From: Rhizobium sp. WYJ-E13
GTDB lineage: Bacteria > Pseudomonadota > Alphaproteobacteria > Rhizobiales > Rhizobiaceae
DNA: 64,000 nucleotides
Reading direction: 5' to 3'
Assembly (NCBI RefSeq): GCF_018987265.1
Contig: NZ_CP076854.1
Span: 1,426,001 to 1,490,000 of the forward strand
The position numbers and the translations under genes are program-made. This document shows positions 2,975 to 64,000 of the stretch, one piece after another. The notes beneath the pieces are model-generated. The model ran no database searches. It was not told the origin of the DNA and saw nothing but the letters and a program-made list of their open reading frames with translations. Numbering within the stretch: the first letter of the stretch is position 1; each line of letters opens with the position of its first letter.

Positions 2975-2977
2975 CGC

Positions 2978-8508: not shown

Positions 8509-8516
8509 GGATATCG

Positions 8517-9485: not shown

Positions 9486-9567
9486 CGGTTTCCAGGCTTC
9501 CAAAGCCGGGCGAAATCCGACAAGGTACCCTTCTTAAGATGAGTATTAAGAGAAGGTATTCGCTGGC

Positions 9568-10461
9568 ATGGACGACGCCCCCAGAGCCCAGAAAAAGCTG
9601 CGCCGCATCGACCGTTTCGGGGAGAGGCTGAAAAATCGGCGTGCCTCGCTTTCGCCAAGCCTGCTCAGCGTCGTCGATTATATCGATCAGCACCGGCACG
9701 CCGTACTCGGCAAATCGGCGCTCGAGATCGCCTCGGAGACCGGCACCTCGGACGCAACCGTCATCCGCGCCATTCAGGCGCTCGGCTTCGAAGGGCTTGT
9801 TGACCTCAGGGACACGCTGGAAGCCCATATCGGCGAGACGGACTCGCCCTCGGAGAAGATGGCCGCTACGACACGGGAGCTTGCCAGCAGCGCCGATTCC
9901 GCCATCGATTTCGTCGTCAACGATCACCGTAGCGCTCTTGATGCGCTCTCCTCGCCAGCCAATCGCGCCGAGATGGGCAAAGTGATCTCGGTCATCCGCG
10001 ACGCAAAACGCATCGGCGTCTTCGGCATCGGCGCTTCGGGCATTCTCGCCACCTATGCGGCTCGCCTCTTTTCCCGCAACGGCTACCCGTCCTATGCGCT
10101 CAACCTCACTGGCATTGCGCTGGCCGAACAGCTTCTGACGATGGAAGAAGGCGATGCGTTGATCTTGATGGCCCACGGCAGGCCCCACCGCGAAGGCATG
10201 ACGACGATTGCCGAAGCCCAGCGCCTGGGCATTCCGATCGTCATGCTGGTCGGTCAGGAGGATACGGTGCTGCGCAAACATGCTGAGGCATCGATCGTCA
10301 TTCCCCGCGCCAAATCGGACCATGTCTCCCTGCACGGGCCGACGCTGGTTTGCATCGAGGCCATTATGCTCGCGCTGGCCGGAAGCGCCCGCGAGCGGAC
10401 GCTTGAGTCTCTCGACCGGTTGCTGACGCTGAGAACCGCAATACGGCCGAGCAAGAAGTGA
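9568..10461 (+). CDS. RpiR/MurR-family transcriptional regulator (HTH + SIS)
   Basis: A 297-residue protein with an N-terminal RpiR-type helix-turn-helix at about residues 20-95 (SALEIASETGTSDATVIRA) and a C-terminal SIS domain at about 130-270 that normally binds a phosphosugar (GVFGIGASGILATYAARLF, DALILMAHGRPHREG). RpiR proteins repress or activate sugar catabolic genes. Here the gene follows the siderophore operon by 82 bp in the same direction, with its own AGAAGG ribosome site, so it may belong to neither flanking system. No sugar gene adjoins it on either side. Its target is unknown. Confidence 0.88.
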   Translation: MDDAPRAQKKLRRIDRFGERLKNRRASLSPSLLSVVDYIDQHRHAVLGKSALEIASETGTSDATVIRAIQALGFEGLVDLRDTLEAHIGETDSPSEKMAATTRELASSADSAIDFVVNDHRSALDALSSPANRAEMGKVISVIRDAKRIGVFGIGASGILATYAARLFSRNGYPSYALNLTGIALAEQLLTMEEGDALILMAHGRPHREGMTTIAEAQRLGIPIVMLVGQEDTVLRKHAEASIVIPRAKSDHVSLHGPTLVCIEAIMLALAGSARERTLESLDRLLTLRTAIRPSKK

Positions 10462-49555: not shown

Positions 49556-51091
49556 ATGCCGAGCCTTCTCGGGATCGATAGTGGCCTGACTGTCACGAAG
49601 GCCGTCATTTTCGATATAGACGGCACACCCATCGCCGTCGCGCGGCGGCGCGTGACCCAGCTCATCCCGAGGCCGCGGTTCGTGGAACGGGACATGCACG
49701 AATTGTGGACCGCAACGGCCGAAGCGATCCGCGAGGCCATTGCTCTCAGCGGCCGCCCGGCAAACGATATCCAGGCCGTCGCGGCAACGGCGCATGGCGA
49801 CGGAATCTATGTGCTGGATCAGTCGGAGATGCCGCTTGGCAACGGCATCGTATCGCTGGACAGCCGCGCAGGTGATATCGTCGATCAGTGGATGAAAAAT
49901 AAGGTCGCCGAAGAGGCGATCGAGCTGACAGGTCAAGTCCCGCATGTCTCGGCGCCGTCGGCGCTACTGGCCTGGATGCGCGACCATGAGCCGGAACGGT
50001 TCAAGCGTATCGGCCACATCATGAGCTGCAAGGACTGGCTGCGCTTTTGCCTGACCGGCACTGTCGGCACAGATCGGACCGAAGCCAGCACCTCATTCAC
50101 CAATGTAAGGACACAAGACTATAGCGAGGACGCCCTGCGTCTGTTCGGCTTGCAGGCGCTTGTTGGCACTCTGCCGCCTGCCGCACGCTCGGACGAGATC
50201 GTTGGACGGATCACAGCCGATGCGGCGCGTCTGACCGGCCTTGTCGAGGGCACGCCTGTGGCTGCCGGCTTGCATGATGTCACCGCATCCGCCCTTGGCG
50301 CGGGTGGTTATGCCGATGGCGTCGTTGCCGTCATTGCTGGAACCTATTCGATCAATGAGACGCTGTCTTCTGAACCGCGCGTCGATCGACGCTGGTTCTG
50401 CCGCAACGGAATTGCACCGGGCGTCTGGAACAGCATGTCGATTTCGCCTGCATCGAGCGCGAATTACGAATGGTTCATCGAAAAACTATGCGCCGGCGAT
50501 CGGGCACGTTGCGACGCCGACGGCACATCCATCCACGCTCTGCTCGCATCCGAAATCGACGCGGCTTTCGAGCGCCCCTCTCCCGTACTTTTCCATCCCT
50601 ATCTCTACGGATCGCCTTATGGCGCTTCGGCAAGCGCGGCTTTCTTCGGACTCGGCGGCTGGCATGACCGCGGTGACATGCTGCGCGCCGTGCTGGAGGG
50701 GATCGCATTCAACCACCGCATCCATGTCGATGCGCTGCGCGACGGCTTTGCCTTCACGGAGGCGCGGCTTGCCGGCGGCGTATCGCGCAACCCCGCCGTC
50801 GTACAGATGTTTGCCGACATTCTTGCAATGCCCGTGACGGTGACTGGCACCGACGAGGCCGCCGCCTGGGGAGCCGCACTTTGCGCCGGCGCAGGCGCCG
50901 GTATCTACGCAGATCCGCAAAGCGCGTCGACGACGAAAAAACAGGGCGAAAACTGCATGCCAAATCCCATCCGCAGCGCCGACTATGACAAGCGCTACCG
51001 GCTGTTCCTGGAGATCGCCGAAACAATGAAGCCGCTCTGGCCAAAGATCGCTGGCCTTGCGCAGGAAAGCGCGGCAGACGCCGCAGTTTAG
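49556..51091 (+). CDS. FGGY-family kinase, LyxK (L-xylulose kinase)-like
   Basis: 511 residues. The first loop is LLGIDSGLTVTKAVIFDIDG. The block LIPRPRFVERDMHELW and the later SPASSANYEWF and HPYLYGSPYG resemble E. coli LyxK/YgcE more than EryA or GlpK. LAGGVSRNPAVVQMFADIL ends the second ATP site. It follows a DeoR gene and precedes a GlpD-like dehydrogenase by 12 bp. That pairing suggests phosphorylation of a polyol at a terminal carbon. The real substrate is unknown. Confidence 0.88.
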   Translation: MPSLLGIDSGLTVTKAVIFDIDGTPIAVARRRVTQLIPRPRFVERDMHELWTATAEAIREAIALSGRPANDIQAVAATAHGDGIYVLDQSEMPLGNGIVSLDSRAGDIVDQWMKNKVAEEAIELTGQVPHVSAPSALLAWMRDHEPERFKRIGHIMSCKDWLRFCLTGTVGTDRTEASTSFTNVRTQDYSEDALRLFGLQALVGTLPPAARSDEIVGRITADAARLTGLVEGTPVAAGLHDVTASALGAGGYADGVVAVIAGTYSINETLSSEPRVDRRWFCRNGIAPGVWNSMSISPASSANYEWFIEKLCAGDRARCDADGTSIHALLASEIDAAFERPSPVLFHPYLYGSPYGASASAAFFGLGGWHDRGDMLRAVLEGIAFNHRIHVDALRDGFAFTEARLAGGVSRNPAVVQMFADILAMPVTVTGTDEAAAWGAALCAGAGAGIYADPQSASTTKKQGENCMPNPIRSADYDKRYRLFLEIAETMKPLWPKIAGLAQESAADAAV

Positions 51092-51103
51092 GACGACAGT
51101 GCC

Positions 51104-52849
51104 ATGACCCTCACCCCTCTCGAGCGCAGCCCGGATACAAGCGAGAACGACATTGACGTCGTCATCCTCGGAGCAGGCATCAATGGCGCCGGCCTGTTTC
51201 GCGACCTGGCGCTGCAGGGCGTCAGCTGCATGATCGTCGATAAGTCGGACTTCGGTTCCGGAACGAGTGCAGCACCCTCCCGCCTCATACATGGTGGATT
51301 GAAATACCTGGAAACCGGGGAATTCGGCCTGGTCGCCCAATCCACTCTGGAGCGCAATCTGCTCTTGAAGAACGCGCCGCATTGCGTCGAGGCGCTGCCG
51401 ACATTCATTCCGGTCTTTTCCTGGACACGCGGCATCTGGGCGGCACTCAGGACATTGGCCGGTTCTAAGACCGCGCCCCGCAGCCGCGGAGCCGTGCTCA
51501 TCAAGATCGGTCTTTCCCTTTACGACTTCTTCGGTTCGCGCGATCGTGTAATGCCGCGCCACCGTCTGATCCTGAAAAGGAAGGCCAGGCAGGAAATGCC
51601 GCATGTCACGCCGGACATCGTTGCCGGCGGGATCTATTACGACGCAAAGATCAGCCGGCCGGAGCGCCTCGTCTACGAACTCGTCAAGGACGGGCTTGAG
51701 GCGAACCCACATTGTGCCGCGGCAAATTTTGCCACCCTGACGGCCAGATCCGAAGGCCGCCTGTCTTTCCGAAAAGAGGATGGAACTGAATTCTCGGTCC
51801 GGCCGAGGCTCGTCGTGAACGCGGCCGGGCCGTGGATCGATCATGTCAACGAAGCACTCGGTGCGCCCTCTCGCCTGATCGGCGGCACGAAGGGCTCCCA
51901 TATCCTGATCGATCATCCAGAACTGGTTCGCAGCCTGAACGGCCATATGATCTATTTCGAGGCCGATGATGGCCGCATCTGCCTGGTCTACGGCTATCTC
52001 GGACTGGCGCTCGTCGGCTCGACGGATATTCCAAGCCGGGATCCCGACACTGTGCGCTGCGAGGATCCAGAAATCGATTATTTCCTGCAGAGCTTGCAAT
52101 CGCTGCTTCCGACATTGCGCTTCGATCGCGACCAGATCGTCTACACCTATAGCGGCATCCGGCCGCTTCCGGCCTCCGACGGAACTGCCCCTGGCCTGAT
52201 CAGCCGCGACCATTCAGCCCCGGTCATCGAACCGGACGACCAGAGGCCATTTGCCATCATGTCGCTCGTCGGCGGCAAATGGACGACGTTTCGCGGTTTT
52301 GCCGAGGAGGTTGCCGACACCGTTCTTTCCCGGCTGGAGCGTTCGCGCAAGCAGTCGACCCGTTACCTTCCGATTGGCGGCGGAAAGGCATTTCCGGCCG
52401 ACGCGCAGGCGAGGCGGGTCTTCGTCGACAGGATCGCGAAGGCTGCAGGCATCACCGCCGCACGCGCAGAACAACTTCTGAACCGCTACGGGACGACGGC
52501 CGAGGCGATGGTGATCTCCCCCTCCGATCATTCCGACGAGCGGCGCGTATCGGCTGCCGAACACTATAGTTTCCGGGAGATCGACTGGATCGCACGCAAT
52601 GAGCTTGTGGTTCACCTCTCCGATATCGTGCTCCGGCGCACGACGATCGCAATCGAGGGCCAGCTGAGCTACGAAGGGTTGACGGATATTGCCGGCATCG
52701 CCGCAAAAGCACTCGGCTGGGATGCTCCGCGTGTTGAGCGTGAGACCGATGATGTCGTCTCCCTGCTCAAGGCGTTTCACGGCCAGACGCTGTCAGCCGG
52801 GACACCGGATATCGAACCGGGAAAAAGCGTCCGGCCCGTCAGTCGATGA
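51104..52849 (+). CDS. GlpD-like polyol-phosphate dehydrogenase
   Basis: 581 residues. The FAD site is IDVVILGAGINGAGLFRDLA, followed by the GlpD box APSRLIHGGLKYLETGEFGL and LVVNAAGPWIDHVNEAL, then VYGYLGLALVGSTDIPSRD. A longer C-terminal domain (DAO_C type) than EryB is present. GlpD-family enzymes oxidise the carbon next to the phosphate-bearing carbon and pass electrons to quinone. With the kinase just upstream it should turn a polyol-1-phosphate into a ketose-1-phosphate. It ends 3 bp from the convergent aldolase. Confidence 0.88.
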   Translation: MTLTPLERSPDTSENDIDVVILGAGINGAGLFRDLALQGVSCMIVDKSDFGSGTSAAPSRLIHGGLKYLETGEFGLVAQSTLERNLLLKNAPHCVEALPTFIPVFSWTRGIWAALRTLAGSKTAPRSRGAVLIKIGLSLYDFFGSRDRVMPRHRLILKRKARQEMPHVTPDIVAGGIYYDAKISRPERLVYELVKDGLEANPHCAAANFATLTARSEGRLSFRKEDGTEFSVRPRLVVNAAGPWIDHVNEALGAPSRLIGGTKGSHILIDHPELVRSLNGHMIYFEADDGRICLVYGYLGLALVGSTDIPSRDPDTVRCEDPEIDYFLQSLQSLLPTLRFDRDQIVYTYSGIRPLPASDGTAPGLISRDHSAPVIEPDDQRPFAIMSLVGGKWTTFRGFAEEVADTVLSRLERSRKQSTRYLPIGGGKAFPADAQARRVFVDRIAKAAGITAARAEQLLNRYGTTAEAMVISPSDHSDERRVSAAEHYSFREIDWIARNELVVHLSDIVLRRTTIAIEGQLSYEGLTDIAGIAAKALGWDAPRVERETDDVVSLLKAFHGQTLSAGTPDIEPGKSVRPVSR

Positions 52850-52852
52850 GAT

Positions 52853-53917
52853 CTAGGAAAACACCGGATCGAGCGCGCCGGATGCATAGCGCTTTGCCAT
52901 CGCCGAAACCGGAAGGGGCGTAATCCGATCCGCCATGCCGGCGGTGCCGAACTGTTCGAAGCGCTCCTTGCATAGCTTGGTGAGTGCAGCCATTGCCGGC
53001 TTCAGATATTTGCGGGGATCGAATTCGCTCGGATCTTCCTGAAGGACCCGGCGGATCTGCCCGGTCATGGCCATACGGCCATCGGTGTCGATGTTGACCT
53101 TGCGCACGCCGTTCTTGATGCCGCGCTGGATCTCTTCGACCGGTACGCCCCAGGTGGGTTTCATCTGGCCGCCGTATTTGTTGATGATCTCCTGCAGCTC
53201 GACCGGCACCGACGACGACCCGTGCATGACGAGGTGCGTGTTCGGCAGCTTGCGGTGGATCTCTTCGATGACATTCATCGCCAGCACCGAACCATCAGGC
53301 TTGCGCGTGAATTTGTAGGCGCCGTGCGAGGTCCCCATGGCGATTGCCAGTGCATCGACCCGTGTTTCACGCACGAACTTCACCGCCTCGTCCGGGTTGG
53401 TCAGCAGCTGGTCGTGAGACAGTTTGCCTTCCGCGCCGTGTCCATCCTCGGCCTCTCCCATCCCGGTCTCCAGAGAGCCAAGCACGCCGAGCTCGCCTTC
53501 AACGGAAATGCCGCCGAGATGGGCCATCTCGGTCACCCGCTTTGTCGCCCCGACATTATAGTCCCAGTCGGCGGGTGTCTTCGCATCCGCCTTCAGCGAG
53601 CCATCCATCATCACAGAGGTAAAGCCCGCCTGAATGGCTGTCATGCAGCTGGCCGGGTCGTTACCGTGGTCGAGATGCACACAAACCGGGATATGCGGGT
53701 AGATTTCGACGACCGCGTCCATCATGTGCTTGAGCATGATGTCATGCGCATAGGCGCGCGCGCCGCGTGATGCCTGCATGATGACGGGGGCGCGGGCCGC
53801 ATCTGCGGCCTCCATGATGGCGAGCGCCTGTTCCATGTTGTTGATGTTGAAGGCGGGAACGCCGTAGCCCTCCTCCGCCGCGTGATCCAGCAACTGCCTG
53901 AGCGTAATGCGCGCCAT
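52853..53917 (-). CDS. Class II fructose-bisphosphate-type aldolase
   Basis: 354 residues from the ATG at 53917 (GAGGGG ahead). Zinc and substrate residues show in [31 protein letters not shown] and [11 protein letters not shown], with [14 protein letters not shown] near the end. This is the class IIB CbbA/FbaA type that condenses or cleaves dihydroxyacetone phosphate and an aldehyde. It converges on the GlpD-like gene and lies downstream of the GH28 gene on the minus strand, 160 bp apart. It may cleave a ketose-1-phosphate from module C, or simply be an extra glycolytic aldolase. Confidence 0.9.
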
Positions 53918-54077
53918 TGAACACCCCCTCACGTGAAGCACGTCGAAATCGTTGGCTTCAGTCTAGAAGGATCGCACACTCACAAAAGTGGAACAAGTAT
54001 AAATCACAATATCACAAATTTTCTGATGATTTTCTCCTTGTCTGAGCATTCAGTGTCGAAAAGAGGCCATGCCGGTC

Positions 54078-55379
54078 TCAGGAGATCAGCACTGTGGTTG
54101 CCGGGTTCCATCCTGCAGGCAGCGGTTCTGGCCGGCGGATCGTTATGTCTTCCAACTCGAGCCCTGTCACATTTTGCGCAAAAACGCCCGGCAATCCCCC
54201 TGGATAGTCGAAAAGCCCGACGATTTGCCCGTCCTGTCCTCGCACCCAGGCGTTGCCGCGCCCCTGCGCGCCCTTCGGCGGCGCCAGATCGGCATTTGTC
54301 GGTCGCAAGTCGTACCGCTTTGCGGCGCCAAGCGGCCCTTCGTCCATTTTGATATCGATCCCGCGCAGAACGATCCCATCGATACCGCCCGGCTCCTCCG
54401 CAAAGAGATTGACGGCACCGTGGCTTCGCCCCGAGACGTTTTCGACCAGCACCATCCGGACTGCTCCTGCGGGGCGTTCCGGGCGGCGTGTGAGCTTGGT
54501 TATCGTGAACGGTTCTCCGGAGCCCCAGAACCCATCAGGCGTCTCGCTGCAATCGAGCTCTATATCGCGGAAAACGACGTCTTCAATCTTGCCGCCATCG
54601 CGCGAAAAGATGCCAAGACCACGGTTCGAATTCTCGATCCGGCAGCGCAGGAATCGGACCTGAGATACATCGCCGAAGCTCTCCGTGCCGATTTTGAGAG
54701 CACAACTCTTGCTCTCAATCACACTATCGCAGATCTCGATCCGCTCGCAGCGTCCAATTCCTTTGTCGCTCAAGCTCGTCTTCAGGCACACACCGTCATC
54801 GGCGGTGCGAATGACGGCTTCAGAAATCGTGACGTCGCTGCAACTGTCGATAACGATCCCGTCCGTATTGGGGAGCTGGCGGTTATTGGAGACGCGAAGC
54901 CCACGAGCGCCGATATCCCGGCAGCGCACGAGATGGATCGTCCACATAGGCGAATCCGTAATGTGGACGTCTTCCAAACGAATGTTGGTGCAATCCTCAA
55001 AAACGATCACGCGTGGACGTTCGGCTACCGGAGTGAAGGTGCCCACCCCCTCGTCGAAGCCAGTGTGGAAGGCATCGCCGCGTCCATCGATCGAGCCTTT
55101 GCCGACGATGGCAATATTCATTGCCTCCTGCGCGACGATATAGGCGCGGTTTGAGGACTCAGCGCGCACGCTGACGGCATTTTCGGAATAAAGCTCATAA
55201 TCGGCCACGAATGCGAGGACAGCGCCTTCCTCGATATGCAAGGTAACATCGCTTCTCAATCGGAGCGCGCCTGTGGAGTGACGGCCCGGCCGAAGGAAGA
55301 CCGTTCCGCCTCCCGCTGCCGCGATCGTATCGAGCGCCATCTGAATACCGCCGTCCACCGCTTCGACGAATATCTCCAT
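54078..55379 (-). CDS. GH28-like (polygalacturonase family) beta-helix protein, no signal peptide
   Basis: 433 residues, right-handed beta-helix. The GH28 motif PNTDGIVIDSCSD carries NTD and TADDGVCLKT carries the DD pair, so the three catalytic Asp are present. By eye the GHG His box is replaced (KSCALKIGTES) and the RIK box reads LGIFSRDGG. The enzyme is therefore divergent. No signal peptide is present, pointing to a cytoplasmic substrate such as an imported oligosaccharide. The start is the ATG at 55379, six bases after GGAGG. It diverges from a sugar importer gene. Confidence 0.82.
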   Translation of the reverse strand: MEIFVEAVDGGIQMALDTIAAAGGGTVFLRPGRHSTGALRLRSDVTLHIEEGAVLAFVADYELYSENAVSVRAESSNRAYIVAQEAMNIAIVGKGSIDGRGDAFHTGFDEGVGTFTPVAERPRVIVFEDCTNIRLEDVHITDSPMWTIHLVRCRDIGARGLRVSNNRQLPNTDGIVIDSCSDVTISEAVIRTADDGVCLKTSLSDKGIGRCERIEICDSVIESKSCALKIGTESFGDVSQVRFLRCRIENSNRGLGIFSRDGGKIEDVVFRDIELDCSETPDGFWGSGEPFTITKLTRRPERPAGAVRMVLVENVSGRSHGAVNLFAEEPGGIDGIVLRGIDIKMDEGPLGAAKRYDLRPTNADLAPPKGAQGRGNAWVRGQDGQIVGLFDYPGGLPGVFAQNVTGLELEDITIRRPEPLPAGWNPATTVLIS

Positions 55380-55441
55380 CACATACCTCCGCCTATTCTG
55401 GCCTCCGCCTGTTCTGGGCTTTTCATAGCATGCGGCATTTA

Positions 55442-55458
55442 TTCGTCAACAGGACGAA
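55442..55458. promoter_or_regulatory. ROK-regulon operator copy 1
   Basis: TTCGTCA-ACA-GGACGAA; 13 of the 14 arm bases fit the palindrome TTCGTCA-N3-TGACGAA. It lies in the divergent gap, 63 bp ahead of the GH28 gene and 73 bp (centre to centre) from copy 2, about seven helical turns. Confidence 0.65.
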
Positions 55459-55487
55459 CTAAATCACATTGAACCGAATGTGTTGTG

Positions 55488-55515
55488 TTGACAGTCCGGA
55501 AAACTCGTATTTAAT
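55488..55515 (+). promoter_or_regulatory. Promoter of the sugar importer operon
   Basis: TTGACA (55488-55493), a 16-bp spacer, and TTTAAT (55510-55515) make a strong sigma-70 promoter. Operator copy 2 starts on the last base of the -10 box. Confidence 0.65.
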
Positions 55516-55531
55516 TCGTCATGGTTACGAA
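55515..55531. promoter_or_regulatory. ROK-regulon operator copy 2
   Basis: TTCGTCA-TGG-TTACGAA (13 of 14 arm bases) covers the transcription start region of the importer promoter, an ideal place for repression. Confidence 0.65.
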
Positions 55532-55604
55532 CAAAGGCCTGAGGGAGTTCAGTTGCAGGCCGTTCATTTCGGATGTCAGAATGACAAGCCAGAGAGGGAG
55601 AACT

Positions 55605-56846
55605 ATGAAAACGCTAAAGACAATTCTAATGACCGCCAGCGCCCTGGCGATGACAATGTCCTTCGCCGCGGCCTCTGAGCTCAAGCTCGTATGGTATGTC
55701 GAAAACGATCAAGAGGAAGCGGATACGCGCGCGCTCCTCGATCAGTACACGAAGCTGCATCCCGAAACGACCTTCGACCTTGAAATTACACCCTATGACG
55801 GGATGATTCAGAAATTCCAGCAATATGCTGCATCGGGGATCATGCCGGATCTGTCGCTGACATCCTCCATGGAGCCGGTCATCAGGCCCTTCCTGGCAGA
55901 CCTCAGCAAGGAGATTGGACCGGAATGGATCAACGACTTCGTCAAGGGTTGGGCCGATGGAGCCAAGCTTGGCGACAAGGTGATTGCCGCACCCCTGCGC
56001 GTCACTTCGACTGGCATCTTCTTGAACGCTGACGCCTTCAAAAAGGCAGGCGTTGCCATCCCGGACCAGGCGACCGGTTGGACATGGGAAGAGTTCATTC
56101 CGAAGATCAAGGAGGTCGCAGAGAAATCCGGCACTCGCTATCCGCTGGTCTGGGATGTTTCGGCGAGCCGTTGGATCGTTCACGAATATCAATATGGCAA
56201 CCACATCTACACCGAGAAGGAACCCGTCAAGGTCGTGATGGACGAGGCGGCCTGGACGAGCACGCTCGATAAATTCATCGACATCACCAAGGCTGCCATG
56301 CCGCCCGGCCTGTGGAGCGGCGCGAGCTCGGACAATCCAAAGGAACTTTTCACGGCAGGTCAGGCGGCAGCCTATATGTCCGGCAGCTGGCAGATCGCCG
56401 GCCTGGCTACCAATGCGCAATTCGCCTGGCAGGCCGGACCGACGCCGCGTGGAACGGTTGCTTCATCGATCTATGGGGGTGACTACATCGTCGCCTTCAA
56501 CACCAGCCAACACCTGCCGGAAGCCATCGAATTCATAAAGTGGGTCACCTCGCCCGAGATCCAGGCGCAATACGCCAAGACGTTCGGCATGATCCCCGCC
56601 AACCTCAAGGCACCCCCGGTCAAGTATGACAATCCGGCTGCGACGGCGGCGATCACCACGATGCAGAACGAACTGAACGCGAGCCCCGTCTACGCGGCGA
56701 CAGATCAGGCCTGGCCGCAAATGCAGGCCGTCTGGGGTACGGTCAAGACCGCCGTCACTCAGGCTGTCGCCGGTCAGATTTCCTCGGCCGAGGCGATCGC
56801 GCAGATCAAGAAAGCCGCCGACGGTTCGCTTGAGGCGAGCAAGTGA
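55605..56846 (+). CDS. Sugar ABC transporter binding protein
   Basis: 413 residues, SBP_bac_1 family. A signal peptide (MKTLKTILMTASALAMTMSFAAA) precedes SELKLVWYVENDQEEADTRA. Family blocks are YDGMIQKFQQYAASGIMPDL, APLRVTSTGIFLNADAFKKA, GQAAAYMSGSWQIAG and GGDYIVAFNTSQHLPEAIEF. The ATG at 55605 follows GAGAGGGAG. It belongs to the CUT1 oligosaccharide class. The ATPase gene is 4.4 kb away at 63004. Confidence 0.92.
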   Translation: MKTLKTILMTASALAMTMSFAAASELKLVWYVENDQEEADTRALLDQYTKLHPETTFDLEITPYDGMIQKFQQYAASGIMPDLSLTSSMEPVIRPFLADLSKEIGPEWINDFVKGWADGAKLGDKVIAAPLRVTSTGIFLNADAFKKAGVAIPDQATGWTWEEFIPKIKEVAEKSGTRYPLVWDVSASRWIVHEYQYGNHIYTEKEPVKVVMDEAAWTSTLDKFIDITKAAMPPGLWSGASSDNPKELFTAGQAAAYMSGSWQIAGLATNAQFAWQAGPTPRGTVASSIYGGDYIVAFNTSQHLPEAIEFIKWVTSPEIQAQYAKTFGMIPANLKAPPVKYDNPAATAAITTMQNELNASPVYAATDQAWPQMQAVWGTVKTAVTQAVAGQISSAEAIAQIKKAADGSLEASK

Positions 56847-57796
56847 CGGCGGCGATCCCGCAACAAGGCAGTTCGGCACTGGGTTTCCACCCGGTGCCGA
56901 AAGGCCGGCGCAACAGCCTTTTCAATCTCGGTTGGCCGTATCTGCTGATGCTGCCGACGATCGCATTGCTCGTTACTTTTACTCTCTATCCGCTTGTCCA
57001 GGGCCTCATGATGGCATTCTTCAAGCGAGGCGTGGTGGTCGTCCCGCAGGTGCCGAGCACTCTTCCGCAATATGTGGGCTTTGATAATTTCCTTGGGCTT
57101 TTGAGCGATGCCGACTTTCAGACCTCGCTCGTCAAGACGGTCGTCTTCGTTGTTATCGCGGTACCGCTGAACATCGTCGCCTCCCTGGCACTGGCGCTGC
57201 TTCTGTCGCCTCAGACGAGGTTCTTTGCAGTTGTCCGGACGATCGTCTTTTTTCCCTCGATGATCAGCCTGCTGATCATCGGCGTCTCGTGGCGCTGGCT
57301 TTTCGGCCTGAACAACGGTCTCGTCAACTATCTGCTATCGCTTGCGGGAATTGCTCCCGTTCCATGGCTCGAACAAGATACCATGGCTCAGATTGCGATG
57401 ATCATCGCCTGGGTATGGGCTCAGGCCGGTTTCAACATGATGATCTTCATCGCCGGCCTCACCGCAATCTCGGCGGATTACTATGAAGCCGCATCAATTG
57501 ATGGCACCAGCAAATGGCGCCAGTTCACACATATAACGTTGCCGCTCCTCAGGCCGACAATGGCGGTGGTTCTGGTGCTGTCCTCGATCGAGGCCTTCAA
57601 GGTCTATGAGCTCGTCGTATCTCTGACGGGGGGCGGGCCAGGAAAGGCGACGGTCTATCTGATCCAGACGATCTACGATACGGCGTTTCAAAAGCCGATG
57701 CAGGCCGGCGTTGCCGCTGCCCAGTCGATGGTTCTCTTTGCAATTCTTCTGCTGCTGACGATCGTCCAGTTGCGCCTGTCGAGGAGCCAGACATGA
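56843..57796 (+). CDS. Sugar ABC permease (MalF-like)
   Basis: 317 residues; GTG start overlapping the binding-protein stop (GTGA). The first segment is YLLMLPTIALLVTFTLYPLV, and the EAA loop DYYEAASIDGTSKWRQFTHITLPLL lies near residue 215. CUT1 family. It is translationally coupled on both sides. Confidence 0.92.
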   Translation: MTAAIPQQGSSALGFHPVPKGRRNSLFNLGWPYLLMLPTIALLVTFTLYPLVQGLMMAFFKRGVVVVPQVPSTLPQYVGFDNFLGLLSDADFQTSLVKTVVFVVIAVPLNIVASLALALLLSPQTRFFAVVRTIVFFPSMISLLIIGVSWRWLFGLNNGLVNYLLSLAGIAPVPWLEQDTMAQIAMIIAWVWAQAGFNMMIFIAGLTAISADYYEAASIDGTSKWRQFTHITLPLLRPTMAVVLVLSSIEAFKVYELVVSLTGGGPGKATVYLIQTIYDTAFQKPMQAGVAAAQSMVLFAILLLLTIVQLRLSRSQT

Positions 57797-58611
57797 CACG
57801 GATCTATTCGCCCTGGCGGCTCGCCTTCGTGGCCCTGACGCTCTTCGTCTTCCTGATGCCGCCGGTGTGGCTGTTCTTGTCGTCGCTGAAATCGCAACAG
57901 GAAATATTCCAGTGGCCGCCAACCATTTTTCCAGCCCATGTAACGCTGCAGAATTTCATCGAAACGGTGTCGCGAGCCAAATTCCTCATCTTCTTTCGCA
58001 ATTCGGCGATCGTCTCCGTGCTCTCGGCACTGCTGTCCGTCACCATCAGCGTCATGGCGGGTTATGCGCTTGCGAAATTCAGGTTCAAAGGCGATACCCT
58101 GTTTTTCCTGCTGATCATGTCATCGCTGATGGTGCCGCTGCAGATCGTCATGATCCCGGTATTTCTTGTCCTGCGCGATCTTCATCTTCTCGATACGCTC
58201 GCCGGCATCATCATCGCCCCCGCTGCGACGCCGACCGGGGTGTTCCTGATGCGGCAATACATTACGAACATTCCCGACAGTCTTCTGGAGGCCGCCAGGA
58301 TCGACGGAACGCCCGAGTGGCGTATCCTCTTGCGCATCATCGTGCCGCTCTCGATCCCAGCAATTGGTACGCTTCTCGCGTTCAACCTCGTCTGGCGCTG
58401 GAACGACTACCTATGGCCGTTCCTGATCATCACCGATCAGGACAAATGGACCGTCCAGGTCGCGCTCGCCAATACGGTTGGACGATTTGGCATCAATTGG
58501 CCGCGACTGCTGTCGATGTCGGTACTCTCGGTCTTGCCAGTGCTCGTCATGTTCGCCGCCCTTCAGCGGATGCTGATGAGCGGGCTGATGGCCGGAGCGA
58601 CCAAAGAGTAG
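57793..58611 (+). CDS. Sugar ABC permease (MalG-like)
   Basis: 272 residues; the ATG overlaps the previous stop. The first segment is LAFVALTLFVFLMPPVWLFL and the EAA loop is SLLEAARIDGTPEWRILLRIIVPL near residue 160. It ends SGLMAGATKE, the usual MalG-type end. A bidirectional terminator follows. Confidence 0.92.
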   Translation: MTRIYSPWRLAFVALTLFVFLMPPVWLFLSSLKSQQEIFQWPPTIFPAHVTLQNFIETVSRAKFLIFFRNSAIVSVLSALLSVTISVMAGYALAKFRFKGDTLFFLLIMSSLMVPLQIVMIPVFLVLRDLHLLDTLAGIIIAPAATPTGVFLMRQYITNIPDSLLEAARIDGTPEWRILLRIIVPLSIPAIGTLLAFNLVWRWNDYLWPFLIITDQDKWTVQVALANTVGRFGINWPRLLSMSVLSVLPVLVMFAALQRMLMSGLMAGATKE

Positions 58612-58634
58612 CCAAAGCCGGTCCCGAGCAAATG

Positions 58635-58661
58635 AAAAAGCCGCCTCCGGGCGGCTTTTTT
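58635..58661. terminator. Bidirectional rho-independent terminator
   Basis: AAAAA-GCCGCC-TCCG-GGCGGC-TTTTTT. The symmetric A- and T-tracts allow termination in both directions between the convergent permease and glycosidase genes. Confidence 0.88.
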
Positions 58662-58717
58662 GCATTGTTTGCCCCCCACAAGGTCGTGACGATGTTCTGC
58701 GGAGCCGACGTCTCAGC

Positions 58718-60454
58718 TCATCGCAAACGCAGCTTGTCTTTGTGCGCAAGGGCAGCCATCGCCGGCATGCTGCTCCATCCCTGGAGCAGCGAGCCGCGCC
58801 CCCATGGCGGCGCAAAATATTCGACGGCGCCCATCCACCCTTCTTCCAGGCAGGTTTCCCACCAGCGCAGCAGCGGATACTCCGCATCCGCAAGGCCGTG
58901 TACCAGGCGCTGTTCGGCATAAAGACCCGACAGGTAGGGCCAGTCCGATCCATTGTGGTAGCGATATGCAAAGGCCGATTTTGAGCGGGTGTCTTTAGGC
59001 CTCTTGAAGGGTGGGAAGGCACACATGACGCCCCAGTCACCGTAGGGCTGATCGCTGTTGCTGCGGCTTTCCAGGGTCGACGCCACCTTGGCCAGAACCC
59101 TTGTTGCGCTTTCTGCCGAAACGGCTCGGTACCGAAGCAGCGTGAGACTGTCGAGCGTCATATGATCCTCGACGAAGTCCTGTTTCGTCCCATAGTCGGC
59201 ATAGGTTCCGCCTTCCTGAAGAAGGACGTCGTCAATCGATGCGCGAGCTCTTTTGGCGATGGCGGCTGCCTTGGCGGCAATATTTTCGTCAATTGCCTCG
59301 CCGTAAGCGGCGATCACGTCGAGAGCACCGACCCACAGGCCGATATCATATGACACGTAGCCGTGGCGGTAGACGTTGTCGGCCCAATCGCGATCGTGGG
59401 CAGGCTTGACCGGCAGGCCGTTTCCGGCCTCATCCAAGGCGCAGTAGCGATCAAGGATGGCAACGACCTTGTCCCAATGAGCAGACAGCGGAGAATTGTC
59501 ACCCGTCGAACGGATATAGTCGCCGATCGTCAGAATGAAGAACAACGGACTGTCGAAGTGGTCGCTCCACCAATCTCCTGGACGCAGGTGCTCCTCTTTG
59601 ATCTGTGGATGCGATCTGCGAACCTTCTCCCATTCCTCGGCCTGTGCCGGCCCGGTCAGGATGACGCCGCTCGGCGCCTCCCCGTCAGGCTGTATGCCGC
59701 GCGCCAGTAGCTCGATCTGCGAGCGTACGGCATCGGGTGCACGCGCCAGCAGGGCCTGAAGCGTCCAGTACCCGTCGCGATAATAGGTTCGTGCCGGCGC
59801 GCTGTAGGCCTGGCCGGCAGCAAGGCCGCCAAAATCCCCATGCTCGTCCTGACGAATGCTTGAAAGTGCGGCATGAAGGCTCTGCGAAACCATGCTGCGC
59901 ATCAGTGGAGAAGCCTCGGGCATCTCATCACAACGCGCTACATAGGCGTTGGCCTCCGCAATCACGTCCTCCTGAGCGAGGTCGAGAGCCCTGGTGGCTT
60001 CTTCGATCGATGCGCCTGCACTGAGAAATATGCCGGCCGGTCGCTGCTCGGCGATTGCGACACCCCATCCCGTTCTGGCAATCCGCCGTTCACCCAGCCG
60101 CTCGACCGGTTCGCGTTTCGTGGTGCTTCCCCACCAAGCGCAACGACGCGAGGGTATGAGTGTTCGCAGTTTCGCCCCCTTCAAAAACACGACCGGTGCC
60201 GACTGGGCCACATAAAGGCCGCCGCCGCTGGTTTCGACGCGGTTCGGCGCATAGATGAAAGGCCCACGCCAACCGCTGAAGGTCAGGTTCGCGATCTTTC
60301 CACAACCCCAGACAGAAATTTCGATCTTGCCGTCCGGCCAGCAATCACCCTGCAGGCGCGGTGCCATGAACGGCAGTTGGACCGGCTTTTCCGATACGAG
60401 TTGCCCATCGGCAAGCGGGTTAAGGACACGCGGTTTTGGACGTGGCTTCGTCAT
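58718..60454 (-). CDS. Six-hairpin (alpha/alpha6) glycosidase-like protein, family uncertain
   Basis: 578 residues from the ATG at 60454 (AGGAG ahead). The second half is an alpha/alpha6 barrel with YYRDGYWTLQALLARAPDA, GDWWSDHFDSPLFFILTIG, DRDWADNVYRHGYVSYDIG and YRYHNGSDWPYLSGLYAEQ, which resemble glycogen-debranching and other six-hairpin hydrolases. The first 200 residues look like a beta-rich domain. No signal peptide is seen, so it acts in the cytoplasm. It forms an operon with the ROK kinase upstream (16-bp gap). The precise GH family and substrate are unknown. Confidence 0.75.
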   Translation of the reverse strand: MTKPRPKPRVLNPLADGQLVSEKPVQLPFMAPRLQGDCWPDGKIEISVWGCGKIANLTFSGWRGPFIYAPNRVETSGGGLYVAQSAPVVFLKGAKLRTLIPSRRCAWWGSTTKREPVERLGERRIARTGWGVAIAEQRPAGIFLSAGASIEEATRALDLAQEDVIAEANAYVARCDEMPEASPLMRSMVSQSLHAALSSIRQDEHGDFGGLAAGQAYSAPARTYYRDGYWTLQALLARAPDAVRSQIELLARGIQPDGEAPSGVILTGPAQAEEWEKVRRSHPQIKEEHLRPGDWWSDHFDSPLFFILTIGDYIRSTGDNSPLSAHWDKVVAILDRYCALDEAGNGLPVKPAHDRDWADNVYRHGYVSYDIGLWVGALDVIAAYGEAIDENIAAKAAAIAKRARASIDDVLLQEGGTYADYGTKQDFVEDHMTLDSLTLLRYRAVSAESATRVLAKVASTLESRSNSDQPYGDWGVMCAFPPFKRPKDTRSKSAFAYRYHNGSDWPYLSGLYAEQRLVHGLADAEYPLLRWWETCLEEGWMGAVEYFAPPWGRGSLLQGWSSMPAMAALAHKDKLRLR

Positions 60455-60470
60455 GGGCGAACTCCTGTTC

Positions 60471-61442
60471 TTATGCGGCAGCCTGGCTGGAAAGTTCGTG
60501 CAAACCAAGCATCAGGGCACCGCGCATTCCGGCCTCTGGACCGAGAGAAGTCGGTTCAATCTGCACCGCAAACGGCAGCAGGGACGACATATGCTGCGAG
60601 ACGAGCTCGACGAATTCCGGACGCGAGCCGATGCCGCCTCCGAGTACCATCAATGCTGGATCGAAGACCGCCTGAATGGACGCGAGGCCGACCGATGCGG
60701 ACTTTGCGAGCGTTGCGATGGCAGCGGCCGCCTCCCCGTCCCCTGAACCCGCTCTGAGGAAGATCTCGCTCACCGGCACGGTTCCATCTCGGTAGAGAGC
60801 ACGAACGGCCGGCGAATCGACTTGGTCCTCAAAGAGGCCAGCCCTTGCTTTCGGTGCGGCATCGTGCGGATTTGTGCCGAGCGGTAGAAGACCAAGCTCC
60901 CCGGCGCGGCCGTGGTGACCGCGAAAAAGCCTGCCGTCGATAACAAGCCCCATACCAACCCCCGTTCCGAAGGCGATGAAGGCCACAGAAGTGCAATCTC
61001 GCGCCTTTCCGAGGGTCGCCTCGGCAAACGCTGCCAGATTGACGTCATTCTCGACAACCACGCCACAGGGCAACCCGGCCTCAAGCAGGCGAGCAAGCGG
61101 CTTGTCCGCCGGGATTGCGAGATTCGGCGACAAGGAGGCAAGGCCAGTGGAGGGCGAAACGGCGCTCGGCACGCCAACGACCGCCTTGAGCAAGGGACCA
61201 CGATCGCGGTGCCTCTCCGCAAGAGTCAGGATCATGCGCACAATTTGCTTGAGAACAGGAGCGCCTTCGCCGTGCGCCGTCGGCTCTTCCATCGTCGCCA
61301 GCAGGTCGCCGTCAAGGTCAGATAGGCCCGCGAGCACTTTCGTGCCACCGAGATCAACACCGGCGACGAGACCCGGAGCTTTCGTGCGGCGATTGCCAAC
61401 CGCCGGCCGCAGATCTGGCGCGATAGTTGAGATATTTGACAA
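60471..61442 (-). CDS. ROK-family sugar kinase
   Basis: 323 residues. The ATP loop is GLVAGVDLGGTKVLAGLSD (DLGGTK), then VVVENDVNLAAFAEATLG with the catalytic Asp, IAFGTGVGMGLVIDG, and FRGHHGRAGELGLLPLG. The zinc motif CxCGxxGC of many ROK proteins is absent. Translation must start at TTG (61442) because no ATG precedes the conserved loop. It likely phosphorylates the monosaccharide freed by the glycosidases. It diverges from the ROK repressor and shares an operator. Confidence 0.9.
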   Translation of the reverse strand: MSNISTIAPDLRPAVGNRRTKAPGLVAGVDLGGTKVLAGLSDLDGDLLATMEEPTAHGEGAPVLKQIVRMILTLAERHRDRGPLLKAVVGVPSAVSPSTGLASLSPNLAIPADKPLARLLEAGLPCGVVVENDVNLAAFAEATLGKARDCTSVAFIAFGTGVGMGLVIDGRLFRGHHGRAGELGLLPLGTNPHDAAPKARAGLFEDQVDSPAVRALYRDGTVPVSEIFLRAGSGDGEAAAAIATLAKSASVGLASIQAVFDPALMVLGGGIGSRPEFVELVSQHMSSLLPFAVQIEPTSLGPEAGMRGALMLGLHELSSQAAA

Positions 61443-61463
61443 ACGCAGCTCTCTTTATATATT
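61436..61463 (+). promoter_or_regulatory. Promoter of the ROK regulator gene
   Basis: TTGACA (61436-61441), a 16-bp spacer and TATATT (61458-61463) on the plus strand. The operator begins 3 bp after the -10 box. The -35 box overlaps the kinase start codon. Confidence 0.6.
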
Positions 61464-61465
61464 TG

Positions 61466-61482
61466 TTCGGCAGGTTGACGAA
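61466..61482. promoter_or_regulatory. ROK-regulon operator copy 3 (shared by kinase and regulator)
   Basis: TTCGGCA-GGT-TGACGAA (13 of 14 arm bases). It lies exactly between two opposite -10 boxes, 61458-61463 on the plus strand and 61484-61489 on the minus strand, so one bound dimer could shut both promoters. Confidence 0.7.
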
Positions 61483-61483
61483 T

Positions 61484-61512
61484 TTATTATTGGTGAGCCT
61501 TTGGTCTGTCAA
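61484..61512 (-). promoter_or_regulatory. Promoter of the ROK kinase-glycosidase operon
   Basis: On the minus strand TTGACA (61512-61507), a 17-bp spacer and TAATAA (61489-61484). Operator copy 3 starts 1 bp after the -10 box. Confidence 0.62.
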
Positions 61513-61598
61513 CAACCAGTTTGAAATTGGCGGGCATTCGTGGAAAAAGCAGATGCAGACGAAAAGCGGAATCGTATATCGACCGGAATATTTGGCTC

Positions 61599-62798
61599 AT
61601 GGCATTGACTGAGAACGCACCTCCTGTGCTGCGACAGATTTCGGTTCGCGCCGTCATGGACGTATTGCTGCATACCGGCCCAACATCCCGGGCGGACCTG
61701 TCGAAGATCACCGGGCTCTCCAAGCAGACAATGTCCGAGGTCATCAGAACTCTGGAAGAAGCCGGCTGGGTTCGCGAAAAAGGCGTTACGACCGGCCGCA
61801 TCGGCCGCAGCGCCATTACCTACGAGGTGAACGGCACCGCCGGCTATGCCGTCGGCGTCGATATGGGCGCAACGACAACGCGGGTCGTGCTCGGCAACAT
61901 CGTGGGCCACATCGTTGGAGAGATAGAATATCCTTCCGACCGTCGTGGTGGCTATCATCAGCTGGAACAGGTTGAGTCAGCCCTTGCTCGAATTCTCGCC
62001 GAGAGCGGAGTGGCGCGCGAGCATGTCCTCGTGGCCGCTATCGCAACCCCTGGCGTCGTTGAACCCACGACCGGCGCATTGTCGATGGCCCCGAACCTTG
62101 TCGACCTCGACAGCATCAATATTGCCAGGACGCTCGCAGATCGGCTTGCATGTCCAGTGGTCTTGGAGAATGACGTCAACGCAGCCGCCATAGGCGAGTC
62201 TTGGCAGGGCCACGCCGTCGCGGTTGATACGGTGGCATTCATTTCGCTTGGTACCGGTATCGGCCTTGGCGTGCTTCAGGACGGCAAACTGATGCGTGGC
62301 GCGAGCGGCGCAGCAGGCGAGATTTCCTACCTGCCGTTCGGAGCCGATCCCTATGCCGAGGACAGCCTGGAACGCGGGGCGTTGGAATGCGCCATTGCAG
62401 CGCAAGGAATCAGCGACTTCTACCAGCGTTCAGGTGGCGCAAAGGACACGTCCGTTCGAGATATCCTAAGGCTTGCCGAAGAGGAGGATCCGATTGCAGC
62501 CAAGGTTATCCGGAAAGTCGGAGACATTGCGGCGCTATTGATCGTGTCCGTGAACGCCATCGTTGATCCTACCATCATCATTATTGGGGGCAGCATCGGC
62601 CGCCATCCGCTGATGGTCCAGCGCATTCGCGAAGGCATCGCCAAGGCCAGCCGGCGCAGGATAACCGTCGAAGCAAGCGCCCTCGGCAGCCGCGCCACAT
62701 TGATTGGAGCGCTCGCCATCGGCCTCAACCACCTGCACAACCTTCTCTTTTCTCCGCAGGCCCTTCCCGAGCAACGGCGCCTCCCCCCGCCGGTCTGA
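61599..62798 (+). CDS. ROK-family transcriptional repressor (NagC/XylR-like)
   Basis: 399 residues. An N-terminal winged helix (MDVLLHTGPTSRADLSKITG, LSKQTMSEVIRTLEEAGWVR) is fused to a ROK domain (YAVGVDMGATTTRVVLGN, VVLENDVNAAAIGESW, ISLGTGIGLGVLQDG). The Cys zinc motif of NagC and Mlc is missing. The start at ATG 61599 is chosen because the upstream TTG (61521) would add non-family residues; the ribosome site is weak. It most likely binds the TTCGTCA-N3-TGACGAA sites and controls the whole 54-64 kb module. Confidence 0.9.
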   Translation: MALTENAPPVLRQISVRAVMDVLLHTGPTSRADLSKITGLSKQTMSEVIRTLEEAGWVREKGVTTGRIGRSAITYEVNGTAGYAVGVDMGATTTRVVLGNIVGHIVGEIEYPSDRRGGYHQLEQVESALARILAESGVAREHVLVAAIATPGVVEPTTGALSMAPNLVDLDSINIARTLADRLACPVVLENDVNAAAIGESWQGHAVAVDTVAFISLGTGIGLGVLQDGKLMRGASGAAGEISYLPFGADPYAEDSLERGALECAIAAQGISDFYQRSGGAKDTSVRDILRLAEEEDPIAAKVIRKVGDIAALLIVSVNAIVDPTIIIIGGSIGRHPLMVQRIREGIAKASRRRITVEASALGSRATLIGALAIGLNHLHNLLFSPQALPEQRRLPPPV

Positions 62799-62900
62799 GG
62801 ACGATCCGCAGCCAGGAGCGGCGCGCCCGCCCATCTCATTTGAAAGCGAATCCGGACAGGCGCGCTCTGGATGGAAACATCTGCAAGCGCAAAATTCATG

Positions 62901-62917
62901 TTCGTCATCTTGACGAA
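62901..62917. promoter_or_regulatory. ROK-regulon operator copy 4
   Basis: TTCGTCA-TCT-TGACGAA, a perfect palindrome (14 of 14), 87 bp ahead of the ATPase gene. It is the best-conserved copy and defines the consensus. Confidence 0.7.
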
Positions 62918-63003
62918 CTAATTCGTTCCCCGCAAAGTGCCGGCTGAATTATGCCTCGATCAGCGACCTTCGCTTGACATAGCTTACTGGGAGAACAGTG
63001 GAC

Positions 63004-64000
63004 ATGGCCGGTTTGAGATTGAACGATGTCAGAAAAAGCTTTGGCCACCACGGTATTCTGCACGGCATCGATCTTGATGTGAACGAGGGTGAATTCGTTG
63101 TCTTGGTCGGCCCATCCGGCTGCGGGAAATCGACCCTTCTGCGATTGATCGCCGGACTTGAGAACGTCACGGGAGGACGCGTCCTGATCGGCGACAAGGA
63201 CGTTACGCAGGCCGCCCCTGGCGAACGAGAAATTGCGATGGTGTTTCAGTCCTATGCACTTTACCCGCACATGACCGTCGCGAAAAACCTGTCATTCGGC
63301 CTCGAAAACCTCAAAATGACGCGAGCCGAAATTGATGCCCGTGTCATGGAAGCGGCCAGGATGCTGGCGATTGAACCACTTCTTGAGCGGCGTCCAAAAC
63401 AGCTGTCGGGAGGACAGAGGCAACGTGTGGCGATCGGACGAGCCATCGTTCGAAACCCCAAGCTGTTCCTTTTCGACGAGCCGCTGTCCAATCTTGACGC
63501 AGCACTTCGCGTACAGACGAGAGGCGAGATCAGCCGGCTCCACAAGCGCCTGGGCGCAACGATGATTTATGTCACGCACGATCAGATCGAGGCGATGACG
63601 ATGGCGGACCGCATCGTCGTGCTCAATGCCGGCCGTGTCGAACAGATCGGCACGCCCCTGGAGCTTTTCGAGACGCCGGCGAACCGGTTCGTCGCAGGGT
63701 TTATCGGATCCCCCCAGATGAATTTTTTCGAAGGCGAACTGCTTTCCTTTGGCCCCGGGGGGATAGCCCTGCAGGTGCCTGGATTCGGTGCGCTCAACGT
63801 GCCGCTGGAGGCCCCCGATGCCCAGATCGGCCAGGCGGTCACGCTTGGCGTCCGTCCCAGTCATTTCGGATTGGCGCGGGATCAAACCCGCGACGGTCTT
63901 CGCGTTCGCTATCATGTTGACTATGCCGAAAGCATCGGAACGGAAACCTATGTCTATGGCACGGTCGAATCCTGCGAAACCTCTGCGGTTATCCATCTTC
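63004..64000 (+). CDS. Sugar ABC ATP-binding protein (MalK/UgpC type, 3' end outside window)
   Basis: The frame opens at ATG 63004 and is still open at the window end (332 residues seen). Motifs are Walker [22 protein letters not shown], signature [16 protein letters not shown], Walker [12 protein letters not shown] and [10 protein letters not shown]; the TOBE/OB part starts near [10 protein letters not shown]. The importer at 55605-58611 lacks its own ATPase, and a perfect copy of the shared palindrome lies upstream, so this is its likely partner. Confidence 0.92.

Follow-up and report, generated by a model that had tools for sequence, protein, structure and literature searches.

A putative substrate-inducible regulon of a ROK repressor and four palindromic operators in Rhizobium sp. 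WYJ-E13

The locus described here, which lies at the end of a 64,000-nucleotide stretch of Rhizobium sp. WYJ-E13 DNA (the window), can with high confidence be read as a local substrate-inducible repressor regulon, in which a ROK protein would act on four 25-bp operators. One repressor and four sites very probably switch a cluster for oligosaccharide import and cleavage on and off. In the proposed mechanism the ROK protein would bind the operators, probably as a dimer, at positions overlapping or adjoining the promoters of pglB, of the importer genes, of the kinase–glycosidase operon together with the repressor's own gene, and of the ABC ATPase gene, and the bound repressor would block RNA polymerase. 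After entry via the importer, an oligosaccharide would meet PglB and the six-hairpin glycosidase in the cytoplasm and be cleaved by them. The released sugar, the same one that the sister ROK kinase would phosphorylate, would then bind the ROK domain of the repressor and free the operators. The features of the locus are collected in Table 1.

Table 1. Genes and operator sites of the locus (window coordinates).
Feature	Coordinates	Strand	Remarks
pglB, GH28 protein	54078..55382	-	NCBIfam PglB equivalog NF051861
Operator 1, TTCGTCAACAGGACGAA	55442..55458	.	5' of pglB (minus strand); 1 mismatch to TTCGTCANNNTGACGAA
Operator 2, TTCGTCATGGTTACGAA	55515..55531	.	Abuts importer -10 region; 1 mismatch to TTCGTCANNNTGACGAA
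Solute-binding protein, sugar ABC importer	55605..56846	+	Likely start ATG 55605
Importer permease 1	56843..57796	+	
Importer permease 2	57793..58611	+	
Six-hairpin glycosidase	58718..60508	-	Weak DUF608/GDE_C matches; frame overlaps ROK kinase, same direction
ROK sugar kinase	60471..61442	-	DLGGTK and END present
Operator 3, TTCGGCAGGTTGACGAA	61466..61482	.	Between divergent ROK kinase and ROK repressor genes; 1 mismatch
ROK repressor	61599..62798	+	N-terminal winged helix-turn-helix, then ROK domain; likely start ATG 61599
Operator 4, TTCGTCATCTTGACGAA	62901..62917	.	5' of ABC ATPase gene; arms fully palindromic; 0 mismatches to TTCGTCANNNTGACGAA
ABC ATPase, UgpC/MalK type	63004..64000	+	Likely start ATG 63004; runs ~120 bases beyond the window

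The four 17-bp palindromes of the form TTCGTCA-N3-TGACGAA named in the preliminary description were confirmed, each with 0 or 1 arm mismatch and each upstream of genes. At up to 3 mismatches to TTCGTCANNNTGACGAA the window held 12 matches, compared with a mean of 3.07 and a maximum of 8 in 100 shuffles. The genome-wide motif search that the same description had called for gave 11 distinct places with 0–1 mismatch in the 6.9 Mb genome, and 4 of them fell within 7.5 kb at this locus. Extended outwards, the motif becomes a 25-bp palindrome of roughly the form TTWRTTCGTCA-N3-TGACGAAYWAA, which occurred at four places in the whole genome, all at this locus, and at none of the 7 other 0–1 mismatch places. 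By a crude open-frame measure, frames of 230–434 codons enclose five of these 7 places, and the other two fall in frames of 171 and of 197 codons; the four window sites gave 105–443, so the measure alone does not separate the two groups. The result is a sharply bounded set of one protein and four sites with no further 25-bp match in the genome. A further 17-bp match (2 mismatches), at 59526 within the six-hairpin glycosidase gene, was left out of the operator set. A chance origin of the four sites was rejected by the window shuffles, the genome-wide counts, and the confinement of the 25-bp form to the locus.

The repressor gave Pfam matches over cut-off to MarR_2 (residues 46–93) and ROK (111–400), the domain arrangement of NagC/XylR-type regulators. 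A regular expression for the zinc-type H...CxC...GC (H-C-C-C) motif found no match in repressor or kinase; this motif is common in ROK proteins and is not a defining feature. All NCBIfam models for the substrate of the kinase scored below cut-off, with 90.5 bits against the GlcNAc kinase model PRK13310 (cut-off 380) and 86 against the ManNAc kinase model PRK05082 (cut-off 283). The kinase was thus not recognized as a hexosamine kinase, and the models listed include none for a ROK glucosamine kinase.

The GH28 protein scored 667.2 bits against NF051861 (cut-off 600), and it shares this PglB family with Agrobacterium PglB (Atu4560), for which a role in polygalacturonate degradation is reported in the part of the source available to us (PMC6683767). 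It is probably cytoplasmic, because its N-terminus, read by eye, has no obvious signal peptide. Among 10 proteins scanned, the only glycosidase matches were GH28 and DUF608/GDE_C. For the six-hairpin glycosidase, a single-sequence search of the PDB at E 0.1 found nothing and profile matches were weak (best E 3.5e-4). Its fold resembles GH116, with invertases and GH94 scoring almost as high; sequence identity to GH116, GH94, and the alkaline/neutral invertases, which we take to be GH100, was 10–18% among the matches listed. As several families score similarly, we took no substrate from the fold and profile searches. The homologue search for this enzyme scored the 7,996 candidates with the most shared words and covers the best 120 of 545 matches.

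For the solute-binding protein, ATG 55605 was preferred as the start because ATG 55521 falls within operator 2; a purine-rich stretch ahead of ATGAAA is conserved at this start in the aligned loci. Its matches among solved structures are varied sugar binders. The NCBIfam matches of the permeases were all under cut-off, and no substrate is readable from these family models. The ABC ATPase probably serves the cluster importer.

Among the same-genus genomes, all 12 with an orthologous repressor carried the 25-bp motif (up to 3 mismatches) exactly four times, always at this locus; of 78 genomes lacking an orthologue, 5 had the motif. In the wider family the motif was present in 9/9 genomes with an orthologue versus 18/288 without, and the latter count is near background, since a reversed control pattern matched 17/297 family genomes. 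The four sites lay 5' of the same genes in 12/12 same-genus orthologue loci and in L048, with 2 mismatches in the kinase site of L054; the position of operator 1 was also the same in all 12 genomes. A motif strewn at random and not ahead of orthologous genes was the outcome that would have spoken against the preliminary idea, which survived this comparison. Gene order differs in other genera, where the sites mostly stand ahead of the new transcription units (L061, L117, L119, L120, L131). Lone ROK homologues of 40–45% identity without the cluster have a site a short distance upstream (L124, L125, L126, L129). The sites thus also occur beside diverged ROK homologues outside the gene set. Taken together, the findings support the ROK regulon reading well. 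An 824-residue product of L131 matched no Pfam or NCBIfam model, and a contig scan gave 4 loci, one at just 29% identity.

The matrix used to scan diverged loci was built from 44 sites in 11 loci, which in both orientations amount to 24 distinct sequences. Its training set did not include L048, L056, or L061, and a 1-mismatch site outside the cluster (L052:15123) was removed by hand. The 8 best places per locus were considered and scores over 9 were listed; 8 of the 21 relative loci scanned had no site scoring at least 24. Cluster genes were sought about 1.5 kb on each side of 19 stray or lone sites, with a second stray site of G067 left out.

An alternative is that some other regulator, such as the product of a gene elsewhere in the genome, binds the sites and that the ROK neighbour is coincidental. 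We consider this very improbable. The predicted ROK binding is read from sequence, other sugar regulators too bind palindromes near promoters, and 18 of the 288 family genomes without an orthologue carry the site. In addition, L127 (G200) has pglB, glycosidase, and kinase genes with a 42% identical ROK gene, and no operator was found there by the matrix scan. The 18/288 count is, however, close to that of the reversed control, and within these 18 genomes a ROK homologue adjoins the site in G212 and G257 and lies in the same cluster in G169. The sites accompany the repressor gene from genus to genus and through rearrangements, and the operator of another ROK protein, RokB, has the same arms as far as the available text gives it.

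Promoter boxes were read by eye, and their conservation was taken from an alignment of 11 loci. The kinase promoter (minus strand) comprises TTGACA at 61512–61507, a 17-bp spacer, and TAATAA at 61489–61484, with the operator 1 bp downstream. For the importer, TTGACA is found at 55488–55493. The boxes of both promoters are invariant across the 11 loci. At the importer promoter the -10 region and the adjoining operator are invariant throughout except for one operator base in L059, and the first half of the spacer is variable; in operator 3 a single base differs in L049 and a single base in L054. A plausible repressor promoter (plus strand) has TTGACA at 61436–61441 and TATATT at 61458–61463, with the operator 2 bp downstream and a less conserved -10 box. 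Palindromic operators at target promoters, as the preliminary description had placed them near -10 boxes, are present, clearly at the importer and kinase promoters. The promoters of the pglB and ATPase genes are uncertain. The six-hairpin glycosidase gene lacks a separate operator. Its longest frame shares bases with that of the kinase, and it is probably transcribed from the kinase promoter.

From this placement we infer repression rather than activation. Some ROK regulators do activate at certain promoters, and the protein might act as an activator here or merely fine-tune its own gene. This appears very improbable, because two operators are placed at conserved -10 regions or immediately downstream of them, and a protein bound there is expected to block polymerase. 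CsnR and XylR are also repressors in the source text available. Inverted repeats can fold in RNA, yet hairpins or terminators are hardly credible for sites at promoters 5' of start codons, with identical letters, beyond mere pairing, at four places and in 12 genomes.

As to the sugar sensed by the proposed ROK repressor, our best guess, a weak one, is an amino sugar; glucosamine or another hexosamine may be the inducer, perhaps in linkage to galacturonate. The guess was made because four related clusters include glucosamine-6-phosphate deaminase genes, and it is weak because none of these genes was found in this genome. NagB-type deaminases over the TIGR00502 cut-off lie in or beside the cluster of G166, G209, G255, and G308, and in G209 an operator stands between the repressor and nagB genes. 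TIGR00502 was searched in 20 genomes, with 8 matching and 4 over cut-off; controls were positive in 6/14. It had no match in this genome, in 9 of the other 11 same-genus genomes (2 matched below cut-off), or in G099 and G435, two genomes with all or part of the cluster. It is conceivable, and in our view rather unlikely, that the regulon serves an undescribed galacturonate–amino sugar oligosaccharide, that the six-hairpin enzyme represents a new carbohydrate-enzyme family, and that repressor and kinase read the same free sugar. Galacturonate joined to an amino sugar occurs in some bacterial surface glycans. No rhizobial ROK glucosamine system was found in the literature searched. Other Rhizobiaceae can be screened with the motif for this switch. 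The genomic context allows a substrate guess that can be put to the test, both for the NCBIfam PglB family and for a group of six-hairpin glycosidases that lack a close relative of solved structure.

The preliminary description knew of no published system that combines these genes. The literature searched (subscription papers and RegPrecise were outside its scope) showed none either, but the CsnR and NagR regulons have the same architecture. According to the available parts of the sources, CsnR of Streptomyces is a ROK repressor of its own cluster (csnREFGHK) via palindromic operators, its binding is weakened in vitro by chitosan oligomers (PMC6097792), and its negative regulation is also described in PMC3048496. 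Like the present locus, that cluster places ABC importer genes, a glycoside hydrolase, and a saccharide kinase under the ROK repressor. Its glycosidase is a GH4 enzyme, whereas the window cluster has six-hairpin and GH28 enzymes and no protein recognized as GH4; the CsnR-box AGGAAANTTTCCT had 0 window matches at up to 1 mismatch. CsnR also targets a chitosanase gene located elsewhere, and no PglB or ATPase gene is named for it in the text available. NagR of Bifidobacterium, again in the text available, is a ROK repressor beside a ROK kinase, nagB, nagA, and an ABC importer, has palindromic operators, and is released in vitro by GlcNAc and derivatives (PMC9599254); its regulon spans 29 genes in several clusters, whereas the window cluster lacks nagB. 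For RokB of Streptomyces coelicolor, the accessible text gives a novH promoter site, TTTGTTC-N11-GAACAAA, that conforms to the 25-bp motif in its outer arms and spacing; two of RokB's own genomic sites differ in that they are reported to lack a perfect inverted repeat, and amino acid metabolism is hinted at (PMC4856308). The parts of the present locus are thus of known kinds; it would work like the CsnR or NagR sugar switches, and the proposed mechanism is unsurprising.

All four copies of the palindrome TTCGTCA-N3-TGACGAA claimed in the preliminary description were recovered at their coordinates, with no arm mismatch in the copy at 62901 and one in each of the other three. A whole-genome motif search of the window's own genome (6.9 Mb, three contigs; the window is C2:1426001-1490000) found 11 distinct places when at most one mismatch was allowed, and four of these fall within a 7.5-kb part of the window. 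Of the seven other places, five lay in open frames of 230–434 codons, and the frames around the remaining two had 171 and 197 codons; this measure alone was not discriminating, because the window sites gave 105–443 codons. When the sequence on either side of the four sites is included, the palindrome grows to about 25 bp (TTWRTTCGTCA-N3-TGACGAAYWAA). Because this pattern was written from the window's four sites, it necessarily fits them, and the rest of the genome and the other genomes served as its tests. With up to three mismatches it occurred four times in the genome, always within the cluster, and the reversed control gave no match.

Coordinates of the operators, starts, and neighbouring features
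Locus	Feature	Position	Remark
Window	Upstream neighbours	49556-53941	FGGY-look sugar kinase (by eye), glycerol-3-phosphate dehydrogenase-like protein, class II fructose-bisphosphate aldolase; no operator copy with 0–2 mismatches among them
Window	Operator 1 (pglB)	55442-55458	
Window	Importer TTGACA	55488-55493	
Window	Operator 2 (importer)	55515-55531	Abuts the -10 region
Window	Binding protein, first-listed ATG	55521	Within operator 2
Window	Binding protein, likely start	55605	Conserved ATG
Window	Operator 3 (kinase/repressor)	61466-61482	
Window	ROK repressor	61599-62798 (+)	Likely start 61599, conserved ATG
Window	Operator 4 (ATPase)	62901-62917	
Window	ATPase, likely start	63004	Conserved ATG
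L049	pglB, seemingly split	2590-3884	Two overlapping matches in the assembly; sequencing error or true break
L117 (G166)	Extra operator-like site	15855	Score 24.5, 2 mismatches; ahead of an EamA-family transporter gene
L131	824-residue protein	7515-9989	In the operator-bearing cluster; no Pfam or NCBIfam match

Sites and repressor occurred together. An orthologue of the repressor (75–100% identity, E < 1e-200) was found in 12 of the 90 same-genus genomes (G000-G089), and each of these 12 carried exactly four sites, all inside the orthologous cluster. Any site at all was present in five of the 78 genomes without it (six sites in total); more distant homologues of the ROK protein are encoded by many of these 78. 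A search around the stray sites in five loci (L070, L071, L073, L074, and L076) gave no cluster protein. The reversed control matched once each in 3 of the 90 genomes. In the wider family sample (n = 297), all nine genomes whose repressor match reached E ≤ 1e-105 had at least one site. Genomes without such a repressor had a site in 18 of 288 cases, which is near background because the reversed control matched 17 of 297. Within these 18, G212 and G257 have a ROK homologue (45% and 40%) directly beside the site, and G169 has one (42%) within the same cluster.

The preliminary description made its regulon depend on sites ahead of orthologous genes in relatives, and this was borne out: 13 of 14 loci (L047, the window's own, L048-L050, and L052-L060) had the four sites upstream of pglB and of the importer, ROK kinase, and ATPase genes. 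The locus from another family of the order (L061) had two sites and a rearranged cluster. In L117, L119, L120, and L131 the gene order was changed and the sites still lay at divergent or single promoters (repressor/ATPase, kinase-glycosidase, importer, and repressor/kinase). No six-hairpin enzyme was found in the L131 cluster. In the matrix scan (training sites 31.1–39.9), 13 of 21 loci had a site scoring at least 24 and eight had none (L116, L127, L128, L130, and L132-L135). L127 is a real exception, because pglB is present there together with genes for the glycosidase, the kinase, and a ROK protein of 42%. Outside the cluster, ROK homologues of 40–45% identity also had a site shortly upstream (L124, L125, L126, and L129), so the operator's DNA specificity seems to predate the present gene set. 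Judged by eye from N-termini, L125, L126, and L129 appear to have transporter genes in the vicinity; L124, L126, and L129 appear to have a gene whose product begins with MFLDVLRRRN or MFLDLLRRRN and resembles D-threonine aldolase or alanine racemase.

Promoter boxes were read by eye, and 11 loci were aligned. At the importer the TTGACA box was invariant, as was the sequence running from the -10 region to the far end of the operator apart from one operator base in L059; the first half of the spacer was variable. The minus-strand kinase promoter (TTGACA-17-TAATAA) had both boxes invariant, with operator 3 one base downstream. As operator 3 also lies two bases downstream of the candidate plus-strand repressor promoter (TTGACA-16-TATATT), it may be shared by both. 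At pglB and the ATPase the operator was conserved and the promoter boxes were not clear.

A more distant ROK protein (37–43% identity to the window repressor) is found in many same-genus genomes; in G017, G051, and G075 its gene has a six-hairpin glycosidase gene of its own as neighbour. A related yet distinct palindrome, (A)ATTTGTC-N9-GACAAAT(T), was located about 145–185 bp upstream of the ROK match in 6 of 17 such loci screened for palindromes (15 of the genus, 2 of the order; sites in L029, L032, L035, L036, L042, and L045), which would be consistent with paralogous repressors that each use their own operator.

Very probably the cluster forms a local classical repressor circuit. A bound ROK dimer would block the promoters, and sugar from the imported and hydrolysed substrate would release the repressor; we infer binding, regulatory sign, and inducer from sequence. 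NagB-type deaminase genes lie within or beside the regulon in L117, L119, L120, and L121. In G166, G255, and G308 the gene immediately after the ATPase gene encodes a NagB-type glucosamine-6-phosphate deaminase that scores above the TIGR00502 cut-off. In G209 nagB comes after the repressor gene, and the operator with the highest score in the matrix scan lies between the two. The kinase product in these relatives may therefore be glucosamine 6-phosphate. In G166 (L117) a GH42 beta-galactosidase (Pfam) follows the permeases, and G308 (L120) has a protein whose N-terminus resembles it. The TIGR00502 search found no NagB in the window's genome; nine of the other 11 same-genus genomes had none, two had sub-cut-off matches only, and 6 of 14 control genomes matched. 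The window-type cluster may rely on a different deaminase or on a different sugar.

The operator reported for RokB on the novH promoter (TTTGTTC-N11-GAACAAA) fits the arms and spacing of the 25-bp motif, and T-rich and A-rich ends are described for other ROK sites in the RokB paper (PMC4856308). The proposed circuit resembles the Streptomyces CsnR regulon, with ROK repressor, importer, glycosidase, and kinase (PMC6097792), and the Bifidobacterium NagR regulon (PMC9599254). Both box and glycosidase differ from those of CsnR, so the window regulon is not a CsnR regulon. It is best seen as a new, well-delimited putative regulon of an already known kind.
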